From Clavibacter phaseoli (GTDB taxonomy: Bacteria > Actinomycetota > Actinomycetes > Actinomycetales > Microbacteriaceae): a stretch of 64,000 nucleotides of DNA. This document shows, one piece after another, positions 5,704 through 11,784 of the stretch (its first letter is position 1; the number at the start of each line of letters is the position of its first letter). The notes under the pieces were generated by a model. It was not told where the DNA came from, did no database searches, and saw nothing but the letters and a program-made list of their open reading frames with translations. Position numbers and translations under genes: made by a program. Where the stretch lies: positions 1,054,001-1,118,000 of the forward strand of contig NZ_CP040786.1 of the NCBI RefSeq assembly GCF_021922925.1, written 5' to 3'.

Positions 5704-7782
<2,079 letters not shown>

Positions 7783-7996: not shown

Positions 7997-8224
7997 ATGA
8001 CACCGACCGCGACCGAGCGTCCCGTGGACGAGCTCGACAACCACCAGCTCACCGCCAACGACCGCTGCGACAGCTGCGGCGCCCAGGCCTACATCCGCGT
8101 CGAGGTGAACAGCAGCGAGCTCCTCTTCTGCGCCCACCACGGCAAGAAGTACCAGGAGAAGCTGTCGGCCATCGCCACGAGCTGGCACGACGAGTCGAGC
8201 CGCCTGCTCGACGAGCGCGCCTAG
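7997..8224 (+). CDS. Small zinc-binding protein, DUF7455 type
   Basis: The 75-residue protein has CDSCGAQAYIRV near residue 25 and FCAHHGKKY near residue 50, a Cys2/Cys-His arrangement expected to bind one zinc ion. Such small proteins are widespread in actinobacteria next to sigma-factor and topoisomerase genes; their function is unknown. GGAGGGG lies about 8 nt before the ATG. It is transcribed alone and faces gatD, with a shared terminator between them. Confidence 0.82.
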   Translation: MTPTATERPVDELDNHQLTANDRCDSCGAQAYIRVEVNSSELLFCAHHGKKYQEKLSAIATSWHDESSRLLDERA

Positions 8225-8326: not shown

Positions 8327-9061
8327 TCAGTAGTGCGCGGGTCGGGCCACGACGGTGGCGCGCGCCTCGCGCGCCCAGCCGTCGAGCCGGTCGAGCGTCC
8401 CGGAGATGTCGGCGGGCAGCTCCCGGCCGTGCCGCGCCAGGGCGGCGGACAGCAGCTCGTCCGCGAGCCTCGGGTTGAGCGCCAGGACGGGGCCGCCGAG
8501 GTGCGTTCCGATCGACGCTCCGACGCGCACGCCCTCGCCGCCGCCCTGGCCGGCGTTGCCGAAGCCCGCGCGCACCGTGCCGAGCGGATCGTGGTCGCCG
8601 ATGTCGAGGGTGGATCCGTGGTTCTCGTAGCCGACGACCTCGCCGTCTGCCGTGTCGAGCACGAGGTCGCCCACGCGCCGCTCGGTCGTGAGGGTGGTGC
8701 GAACGGGCAGCACGCCGGCGCCCACGAGCTCGCCGCCGTCGGTGAGGCGGACGGACTCCCCCAGGAGCTGGAGGCCGCCCCCCACCGCGAGGATCGGCAC
8801 GCCGGCCTCCCGGAGGGCGACGAGGCGCGGGGCGTGCGCGACGAGGTCGGGCAGGACCGCGCGTTGCGCCGTGAGCGGGCCGGACCCCACGACGACCAGG
8901 TCGGCGTCGCCCGGATCCCCGCCGCCCGGCGCGTGCCGGACGACCTCCGAGCCGATCCCGCGGATGCGCGCGCGCTCGACGAGCACCGTCACGTTCCCGC
9001 GGTCGCCGTTGATGCCGAGCTCATCGGGGTAGAGGTGCAGGATGCGCAGGGCGTGGCTCAC
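8327..9061 (-). CDS. gatD: GatD-like glutamine amidotransferase subunit, catalytic residues missing
   Basis: The 244-residue class-I glutamine amidotransferase-like (CobB/CobQ) protein is colinear with GatD from the N-terminal ILHLYPDELG to the C-terminal NPRLADELL. GatD normally hydrolyses glutamine and passes ammonia to MurT for amidation of D-Glu in lipid II. Here the nucleophile motif CGGYQ reads VGGGLQLLG, with Gly94 where S. aureus GatD has Cys94, and the LHGP motif reads LGGP, with Gly189 instead of His189. The glutaminase should therefore be inactive. The fold motifs GYENHG and the GxGN segment remain. The GTG start overlaps the murT stop (GTGA), so the two are translationally coupled. 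Orthology is clear, but the reaction as annotated is doubtful. Confidence 0.85.
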   Translation of the reverse strand: MSHALRILHLYPDELGINGDRGNVTVLVERARIRGIGSEVVRHAPGGGDPGDADLVVVGSGPLTAQRAVLPDLVAHAPRLVALREAGVPILAVGGGLQLLGESVRLTDGGELVGAGVLPVRTTLTTERRVGDLVLDTADGEVVGYENHGSTLDIGDHDPLGTVRAGFGNAGQGGGEGVRVGASIGTHLGGPVLALNPRLADELLSAALARHGRELPADISGTLDRLDGWAREARATVVARPAHY

Positions 9062-10338
9062 GCGGGTCCTCCCTCGAGGTCCGTGTACCCGAGGATGCGG
9101 CGGATCGCCATCATCTGCTCGTAGTTGACGATCATGGTCTTCACGCCGCGGGACGGCTTCTCCATCGCGAGGAACGCCTGGACGGCGCGGCGCAGGTCGG
9201 GCTCGACCCGGCCGACCTCGAGGCCCTCGTAGCCGAAGCGCACCGCCAGCTGGTAGCCCTTGGTGCCCGAGACGACGTCGGCGTGCGTGAGCGCGGAGAG
9301 GTCGGTGTCGTAGATCCACGACGGGTCGGGGGTCCCGTCGTCGACGGCGAGCAGCACCTGCTCGGGCGGGTCGCCGAGCGCGTCCAGGTTCATCTGCAGG
9401 CTCGCCGGGTTCTTCATCATGATGATCTCGATGTCCTCGTCACCCGCGCGCAGCATCTCGCCGCGCCCGTAGACGGCGGCGACGGAGCCCAGGCCCTCGG
9501 CCGCGCGGGCCGGGTCGAACAGGTCGCCGAGCACGCGGCGCGCCGTGGCGAGCGCTCCCGCGGCGTCGACCGCGTAGTGCAGGCCGCGCGAGGGCAGCGT
9601 CACCGGGAGGTCGCCGGACGCCAGTCGGAACACCGCGTCGCGACCCGAGAGGGCCACGGCCTCGACGCCCGCGTCGACGTGCACCGGGTCGGGGTCCTCG
9701 GATCCGAAGCGGGGGGCGGACGCCAGCCCGTGCTTGCTGTCGCCGAGGAGCTCCTCGGACACGCCGAACCAGTCGACGGCCGCGCGGCCGGCCCGCGCCG
9801 TGTGCGCGGCGATGGCGTTGACGTGCGCGTCGTCGCGGTTGGCGACCACCGCCTCGGTCGCCGTCGCGGCGATGCGATCGAGCATGCCGACCACGCGGTC
9901 GGGCTCGTGGAACCGGTTGAGCTGGTCGATCTGGATGTTGAGGAGCAGCACCGTGCGGGGCGTGAGCAGAGCGGAGAGCGCGACGCCGTAGGCCTCGTCG
10001 ATCTCGAGGACCGCGACGTCGGCGTCCAGGCGCCCGGAGGCGTCGGCGTCCGCGAGGACGGCGGACGCGATGCCCTGCGGCAGGTTCCCGCCGGACGGGT
10101 TCGTGAAGACGCGGAGCCCGTGCGCGCGGAGCACGGCGGTGAGCATGTGGGTGGTCGTCGACTTGCCGTTCGAGCCGGTGACGGCGACCACGCCGTGCGG
10201 CAGGTCGGCGATCGTCCGCTCGAGGAAGCGGGGCTCGAGCCGGAGGGCGACGACGCCGGGCACGGCGGAACCGCCGCCGCGGAGACGGGCGGCCCAGCGG
10301 GCGGCCCGTCCCGCGGCGACGGCGAGGCGCAGCGGCAC
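9058..10338 (-). CDS. murT: MurT-like Mur ligase, no zinc ribbon
   Basis: The 426-residue Mur ligase has a P-loop GSNGKSTT at residues 55-62, the DUF1727 C-terminal domain (MKNPASLQMNLDAL) and a PDPSWIYD motif equivalent to the family's DxSWIWD. MurT activates the alpha-carboxyl of D-Glu in lipid II with ATP. Characterised MurT proteins carry a four-cysteine zinc ribbon in the central domain; this protein contains no cysteine anywhere. The GTG start lies 3 nt after the sigA stop, and the stop overlaps the gatD start. Given the degenerate GatD, the amine donor may differ from ammonia (inference). Confidence 0.87.
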   Translation of the reverse strand: MPLRLAVAAGRAARWAARLRGGGSAVPGVVALRLEPRFLERTIADLPHGVVAVTGSNGKSTTTHMLTAVLRAHGLRVFTNPSGGNLPQGIASAVLADADASGRLDADVAVLEIDEAYGVALSALLTPRTVLLLNIQIDQLNRFHEPDRVVGMLDRIAATATEAVVANRDDAHVNAIAAHTARAGRAAVDWFGVSEELLGDSKHGLASAPRFGSEDPDPVHVDAGVEAVALSGRDAVFRLASGDLPVTLPSRGLHYAVDAAGALATARRVLGDLFDPARAAEGLGSVAAVYGRGEMLRAGDEDIEIIMMKNPASLQMNLDALGDPPEQVLLAVDDGTPDPSWIYDTDLSALTHADVVSGTKGYQLAVRFGYEGLEVGRVEPDLRRAVQAFLAMEKPSRGVKTMIVNYEQMMAIRRILGYTDLEGGPA

Positions 10339-10341
10339 GGC

Positions 10342-11784
<1,443 letters not shown>

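Follow-up and report, generated by a model that had tools for sequence, protein, structure and literature searches.

A MurT/GatD pair with a dead glutaminase as a candidate ligase for the group-B peptidoglycan bridge in Microbacteriaceae

Results

The window examined here is a 64,000-nucleotide stretch of the Clavibacter phaseoli genome (contig NZ_CP040786.1 of RefSeq assembly GCF_021922925.1, positions 1,054,001 to 1,118,000), and the genes in question are a murT/gatD pair on its minus strand, written murT-star and gatD-star, where the star denotes the divergent type found in the window. The first (9058..10338) encodes a protein of 426 amino acids, a Mur-ligase-fold ATP-dependent carboxylate ligase, and the second (8327..9061), which overlaps it by 4 nucleotides, encodes a class-I amidotransferase fold of 244 amino acids with a dead glutaminase site. 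An earlier note on this DNA had described a MurT without cysteine that keeps its P-loop and C-terminal motifs beside an inactive GatD, and the description holds in each part. Neither protein contains a cysteine, and aligning GatD-star with its S. aureus and streptococcal counterparts places glycine codons at both the nucleophile Cys94 position (8780..8782, minus) and the catalytic His189 position (8495..8497, minus); the residue numbering coincides with that of S. aureus GatD, such that Gly94 and Gly189 stand directly for Cys94 and His189. MurT-star retains the P-loop GSNGKS, read from the sequence at 10159..10176 (minus), together with LEIDEA, KNPASL and SWIYDTD, the last aligned at 9301..9321 (minus) and including Asp344, which we take to be the MurT aspartate that completes the GatD triad. 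In the aligned segment NIQIDQLNR (9913..9939, minus) the canonical arginine of xxxRDQ, residue 137, is replaced by isoleucine.

The domain pairing of MurT/GatD is present, with Pfam Mur_ligase_M and MurT_C above cut-off in MurT-star and a GATase_3 domain in the adjoining GatD-star. The best sequence relatives of MurT-star in the Protein Data Bank (PDB) are the MurT chains of S. pneumoniae, S. pyogenes and S. aureus, and a PDB fold search with its AlphaFold2 model (predicted local distance difference test, pLDDT, 90) returned MurT chains first and then MurF, MurC and MurE chains among others, at template modelling (TM) scores of only about 0.5-0.7, which indicates that domain positions differ. 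The AlphaFold2 model of GatD-star (pLDDT 94) reaches a TM score of 0.89 to S. aureus GatD. MurT-star (105 of 800) and GatD-star (115 of 450 and 84 of 400) score below the NCBIfam equivalog cut-offs, and MurT-star also falls below that of the MurE model TIGR01085 (24.7 of 257 bits). The window genome has a single MurT_C match, this murT-star, and GatD-star, compared along its whole length, shares 83-88% identity with GatDs named Clavibacter at NCBI. Three of the dead GatD relatives listed (P0009, P0010 and P0076) carry the UniRef label 'Lipid II isoglutaminyl synthase', a name that is unsupported by their sequence class.

The sequences, losses, synteny, mutual exclusion and phylogeny reported below were computed directly. 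Loci from genomes of the same family and the same order were read for MurT (121) and for GatD (120, L098 having given no GatD), and the canonical and non-canonical groups were first split by MurT_C score and not by GatD. The nucleophile cysteine is lost in all 66 non-canonical family GatDs read (from 67 loci), with Gly, Ala, Ser, Thr, Asn or His in its place, and the catalytic histidine is lost in 31 of these and retained at that site in 35. Both residues are retained in 14/14 canonical family GatDs and in 40/40 GatDs from other families of the order (of 47 found). These sister families are presumably mostly group A, and the same losses in group-A relatives, which the earlier note had named as evidence against its own idea, were thus not found among them. 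Loss of the GatD cysteine is the informative signal and not chance. A second set of losses was found in the order of Erysipelothrix (Erysipelotrichales, Bacillota), where MurT_C matches fall into 53 canonical places (102-139 bits) and 27 divergent places (47-93 bits): cysteine and histidine are retained in all 30 canonical loci read and lost in all 20 divergent loci read, two of the latter having a cysteine one residue away. Named matches to one of the divergent GatDs are metagenome-assembled genomes labelled Erysipelotrichaceae bacterium.

The cysteines of MurT itself follow no such pattern. The earlier note had expected them to be kept in group A and lost in group B, but fewer than four cysteines occur in 41/54 canonical MurTs with intact GatD (12/14 in the family and 29/40 in the other families), and four or more are found in 19/20 divergent MurTs that are paired with a dead GatD in the Erysipelotrichales. 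Two or more CxxC motifs are present in just 8/54 canonical actinobacterial MurTs, and the Cys4 zinc ribbon is not general in the family. Given how often cysteine occurs in canonical actinobacterial MurTs, a MurT of this length would lack it by chance with a probability of about 0.18. MurT cysteine loss was therefore ruled out as a group-B marker, low cysteine being usual in canonical actinobacterial MurTs whose GatD is intact; on these counts MurT cysteines are uninformative, and their absence in the window protein is weak evidence.

The nucleotide and metal residues of MurT-star are kept, with Gly55, Gly58 and Lys59 of the P-loop invariant in 56/56 proteins and these three, Glu112, Asp114, Glu115, Asn134, Arg142, Asp170 and Arg292 present at 96-100%. 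Canonical MurTs of both phyla share 61 columns that are at least 90% identical; counting a column as changed where it holds another residue or falls below 90%, 29 of the 61 are altered in MurT-star. Changes in MurT-star include Arg137 of the RDQ motif, which is one of the 29, residues 141 and 145, and Gly313, and Asp344 is present in 52% of MurT-star proteins, including that of the window. Of the same 61 columns, 19 are retained and 20 altered in both dead-GatD types, the retained ones including the ten residues just named and Asp138. The kept and changed columns would fit a carboxyl-activating site that has been retained and an amine side that is new.

In a MurT tree of 94 rows (short search, midpoint root), MurT-star forms one clade among actinobacterial MurTs (25 rows; Shimodaira-Hasegawa-like approximate likelihood ratio test, SH-aLRT, 99). 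A second Microbacteriaceae type, called THN after its motif, groups instead with divergent Erysipelotrichales MurTs, as do two odd Microbacteriaceae MurTs, one of them on a very long branch (SH-aLRT 99). Because MurT-star and the Erysipelotrichales-type MurTs with dead GatD fall in separate clades, this tree implies two or more independent deaths of GatD; the second kind appears to have passed from one phylum to another.

Across 120 Microbacteriaceae genomes, scored with a MurT-star profile and then sorted by hand, a non-canonical MurT occurs in 86: 77 of the window type (some fragmentary or lower-scoring), seven of the THN type and two others (G053 and G005). Canonical MurT is present in 14 genomes, two of which (G054 and G066) also carry MurT-star, leaving 12 canonical-only genomes. 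The remaining 22 have no MurT, which rules out MurT-star as the sole bridge ligase of the Microbacteriaceae. An extra Mur ligase in the no-MurT genomes was also ruled out, as 8/9 examined have only five Mur-type proteins and the ninth, G020 (loci L122, L132 and L142), has seven. Two of these seven are MurE-like by eye and lie away from the wall cluster. In G068 and G101 the MurT-star match contains an in-frame TGA, through either sequencing error or decay.

A CofE-like profile gave 16 strong matches (366-436 bits) in the same 120 genomes, all of them within the 22 without MurT. The overlap with the 86 non-canonical MurT genomes is 0, with a Fisher p of 7e-11 (1e-9 if G053 is counted as both) in a test that ignores shared ancestry. 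Four genera (g7, g9, g13 and g85) have MurT-star in one species and the CofE-like gene in another, and the exchange therefore happened repeatedly. The CofE-like protein has about 233 amino acids and belongs to the F420_ligase family; the L164 member is above the PF01996 cut-off and below that of the F420-0:L-glutamate ligase (CofE) equivalog (30.3 of 180.65 bits), and a search of the PDB with a profile of eight sequences gave no relative at E 0.001. What CofE enzymes couple to a carboxylate is an amino acid and not ammonia, so that the trait common to MurT-star and the CofE-like protein would be amino-acid ligation and not amidation.

The two genes also share a chromosomal position. The conserved left boundary of the window locus is a minus-strand gene at 10342..11784 that we take to be rpoD, the principal sigma factor, and the conserved right boundary is a minus-strand gene at 5704..7782, presumably the parE-type topoisomerase subunit, the starts of both coming from the gene caller. 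Between gatD-star and parE lies a small plus-strand gene (8024..8224) that is present in many relatives and is presumed to be DUF7455. By tblastn, 41 of 42 MurT-star stretches have rpoD and parE within 10.5 kb, and these 41 contain a racemase-like gene in 14 cases, an ATP-grasp gene in one and a CofE-like gene in none. The THN-type MurT stands in the rpoD-parE slot in both intervals read, and the CofE-like gene does so in 7/8 no-MurT genomes fetched, the eighth (G049) having only transporters. All seven CofE-like stretches contain rpoD and parE, six an ATP-grasp gene, five an Alr-like racemase, two an aminotransferase and none a MurT. The cassette partners are mostly an ATP-grasp protein of the sugar-transfer type and genes resembling alanine racemase; the aminotransferase is a relative of diaminobutyrate aminotransferase, and the one run against NCBIfam passes its cut-off. 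No cassette gene was detected by tblastn in the rpoD-parE stretch of the 12 canonical-only genomes or of four of the six that have neither a MurT nor the CofE-like gene (the stretches of the other two, G022 and G119, were unseen). MurT-star/GatD-star and a nearby racemase-like gene are kept in the reduced 0.93 Mb genome of G015 (46% GC in the stretch fetched), perhaps a Tropheryma.

A search with the CofE-like alignment confirmed at least 520 relatives, and the best 80 include Microbacterium, Salinibacterium, Gulosibacter, Cryobacterium and others as well as three Erysipelothrix species at 65-67% identity. Among 77 named CofE-like loci that lie outside Erysipelothrix the gene was called in 71, which contain rpoD in 71 cases, ATP-grasp in 66 and a racemase in 50. 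One record, L282, is titled Stenotrophomonas maltophilia P13 and holds a Microbacteriaceae-like stretch of rpoD, CofE-like, ATP-grasp and parE genes, probably reflecting a contaminated assembly. A split alanine-racemase-like pair was seen at L164:2841-4444, L171:2877-5134, L183, L184, L189 and L190 and in the named CofE-like loci. One subunit has the pyridoxal phosphate (PLP)-lysine motif KxxAYxHG in 61/66 calls and the other in 0/61, most calls of this second subunit covering just a C-terminal domain (with starts from the gene caller); in 24 printed examples the SYG tyrosine motif occurs in 10/11 of the second kind and 1/13 of the first. The two subunits probably form a heterodimer making a D-diamino acid.

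The conservation and placement of the pair bear on the least probable of the explanations considered, by which it is a leftover in decay, or serves some regulatory function apart from the bridge, and the exclusion between MurT-star and the CofE-like gene stems from lineage history only. Decay would suit the presence of Asp344 in just 52% of MurT-star proteins, the two family genomes with an in-frame stop, and the existence of Leucobacter and six other genomes that live without the pair. It sits poorly, however, with P-loop residues that are invariant in 56 proteins, with rpoD and parE close by in 41/42 stretches, with persistence of the pair in the 0.93 Mb genome and with four mixed genera that require repeated replacement.

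Among those examined, the nearest CofE-like relatives outside the Microbacteriaceae belong to Erysipelothrix and its kin, and the Erysipelothrix wall is one that we take to be group B (B1). In a CofE-like tree of 51 rows the Microbacteriaceae and Erysipelothrix branches form one clade (SH-aLRT 97, with 90 and 88 for the branches). In the Erysipelothrix order the CofE-like gene is carried by 18 and a MurT_C match by 76 of 148 genomes, with an overlap of 0 as judged by eye from the genome lists (Fisher p 7e-7). A scan of 16 named CofE-like genomes, three of them Erysipelothrix, found MurT_C in none.

Discussion

Group-B peptidoglycan has been in taxonomic use for half a century. FemABX, the D-Asp ligase and other group-A bridge enzymes supply inter-peptide bridge residues and acylate the amine of residue 3; unlike these, group B requires activation of the D-Glu carboxyl. 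The earlier note knew of no enzyme assigned to this defining step, and none was found in the passages retrieved by searches of open-licence PubMed Central (PMC) texts.

MurT-star/GatD-star is probably an ATP-dependent ligase that attaches the amino acid of the bridge at the alpha-carboxyl of D-Glu, GatD-star being kept as a structural partner. A MurT/GatD complex that once drew on glutamine for amidation would thereby have become a ligase of amino acids. As the conservation of its nucleotide and metal residues suggests, MurT-star would activate the D-Glu alpha-carboxyl of the wall precursor with ATP, and the attacking group would be the amine of the bridge residue in place of the ammonia that GatD supplies. 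GatD-star would produce no ammonia and would be retained as the subunit that MurT needs, perhaps shaping the amine site. For Clavibacter the predicted amine donor is D-diaminobutyrate (D-DAB), whose addition would form the D-Glu-D-DAB-D-Ala (2-to-4) link of the B2gamma wall. The central idea has strong and partly independent support from the GatD losses in two phyla, the replacement at the locus, the mutual exclusion and the cross-phylum CofE-like relative. That a MurT freed from its glutaminase attaches the group-B bridge residue, as the earlier note proposed, is thus strongly favoured by comparison of sequences, whereas the reaction itself, its substrate and the role of GatD-star are what we infer from that comparison. 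The chemistry is described for C. michiganensis, whose stem is Gly-D-Glu-L-DAB-D-Ala and whose D-DAB bridges D-Glu to D-Ala as a one-residue B2gamma bridge (PMC9603630).

Comparison with known systems separates what has been kept from what has changed. The isoglutaminyl synthase MurT/GatD of S. aureus, S. pneumoniae and S. pyogenes matches the window pair in its two-gene make-up, its folds, its ATP and metal site and its MurT_C and GATase_3 domains, but the window pair differs in lacking the glutaminase nucleophile and histidine and the Cys4 ribbon, in scoring below the equivalog cut-offs and in its changed RDQ, NPxG and triad regions. MurE and MurF share the fold of MurT-star and use ATP to couple an amino acid to a carboxylate of the stem, as MurT-star would; by its MurT_C domain and its closest sequence relatives, however, MurT-star sides with MurT, and unlike these ligases it would need a GatD partner and would target the alpha- and not the gamma-carboxyl of D-Glu. 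The CofE-like member (PF01996) occupies the same locus and excludes MurT-star, although the proteins are unrelated.

Precedents for both halves of the proposal come from S. aureus (PMC3266927). The GatD mutation C94G, the same substitution as in the window GatD-star, abolished glutamine use and left ammonia-dependent activity at pH 8.5; MurT without GatD was inactive with any donor tested, and MurT formed UDP-MurNAc-Ala-Glu-Lys in vitro, a result given there as 'data not shown'. A dead GatD can therefore be a required partner, and a MurT can take an amino acid. The residual activity of the C94G complex also lends itself to an unlikely alternative, namely that MurT-star/GatD-star still amidates D-Glu with free ammonia instead of glutamine and that another enzyme attaches the bridge. 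D-Glu amidation is listed among the C. michiganensis muropeptide modifications (PMC9603630), which fits an ammonia-using MurT-star. Against this, the wild-type S. aureus complex made no use of ammonia at pH 7.5 (PMC3266927). Amidation of the D-Glu alpha-carboxyl would moreover block cross-links, because the bridge of the Clavibacter wall is attached there, and racemase-like genes lie near the pair in 14/41 MurT-star stretches. The exclusive counterpart of the pair belongs to a family of amino-acid ligases, and two losses of GatD function in groups with bridge-type walls (presumed for the Erysipelotrichaceae) would have to be coincidence.

Ligation at another step of the same wall, such as addition of a second bridge residue or of stem position 3, is less likely still. 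The MurE-like activity of MurT in vitro (PMC3266927) would accommodate such a role, and in G018 the ATP-grasp gene common to the CofE-like cassette adjoins MurT-star/GatD-star, so that bridges may need two ligases. The five Mur-type proteins of 8/9 no-MurT genomes, however, fit MurC-F plus FolC, and stem position 3 is therefore probably covered by MurE. Known MurTs, furthermore, act on the D-Glu alpha-carboxyl, and the Clavibacter bridge is a single residue (PMC9603630).

Besides the amidation recorded in C. michiganensis, several observations weigh against a bridge ligase in MurT-star/GatD-star. Group-B relatives with intact catalytic residues, which the earlier note had regarded as contrary evidence, occur in one genus: Leucobacter species are reported to have cross-link type B with DAB (PMC4804768), and the Leucobacter genomes G014 and G096 have canonical MurT/GatD and no MurT-star, strong CofE-like gene or interval cassette. 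The type-B report concerns the Leucobacter species of that paper; either another enzyme attaches the bridge in Leucobacter or the link needs re-examination. Ten further family genomes are canonical-only, and six of 120 (G019, G022, G049, G051, G062 and G119) have neither a non-canonical MurT nor a CofE-like gene nor any MurT. In G053 a weak CofE-like gene (142 bits) adjoins that genome's own dead-GatD MurT pair. Weaker CofE-like proteins (104-288 bits) are present in 21 genomes from other classes of Actinomycetota, and a draw of 396 genomes gave 23 matches, these 21 and two Microbacteriaceae, with none from another family of the order or class, a comparison in which the number of such genomes drawn is only partly listed. 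Both Fisher tests leave shared ancestry out of account. Wall type is available for few taxa, namely Clavibacter, Microbacterium galbinum, which carries the CofE-like locus L248 and has D-ornithine in its wall (PMC10757982), and Salinibacterium, of wall type B (PMC7033078). For Erysipelothrix the passage cited only calls the murein chemistry distinctive (PMC7203096).

The arrangement in G053 is unusual in its own right: at L175:8604-11402 the CofE-like, MurT and GatD genes overlap head to tail, with GatD dead and MurT very long-branched. The rpoD-parE stretch of the same genome holds racemase-like genes and no ligase.

At about even odds, the rpoD-parE interval may be regarded as a modular group-B bridge locus. 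In such a locus the CofE-like ligase or the Bacillota-type dead-GatD MurT pair could substitute for MurT-star/GatD-star, making three interchangeable ligases, unrelated or of separate derivation, for the first bridge residue (MurT-star/GatD-star, the Erysipelotrichales-type pair and the CofE-like protein), while an ATP-grasp ligase would add the second and the two-subunit split racemase would provide D-ornithine or D-diaminobutyrate. The same kinds of ligase would be shared with, or parallel in, the order of Erysipelothrix.

This analysis offers concrete candidate enzymes, in two phyla, for the step that defines group-B peptidoglycan, and it may turn an old chemical classification of the wall into a testable gene trait. 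If true, the proposed ligase role would make MurT-star/GatD-star a clear example from nature of how an amidotransferase, through loss of its source of ammonia, turns into a ligase of amino acids.

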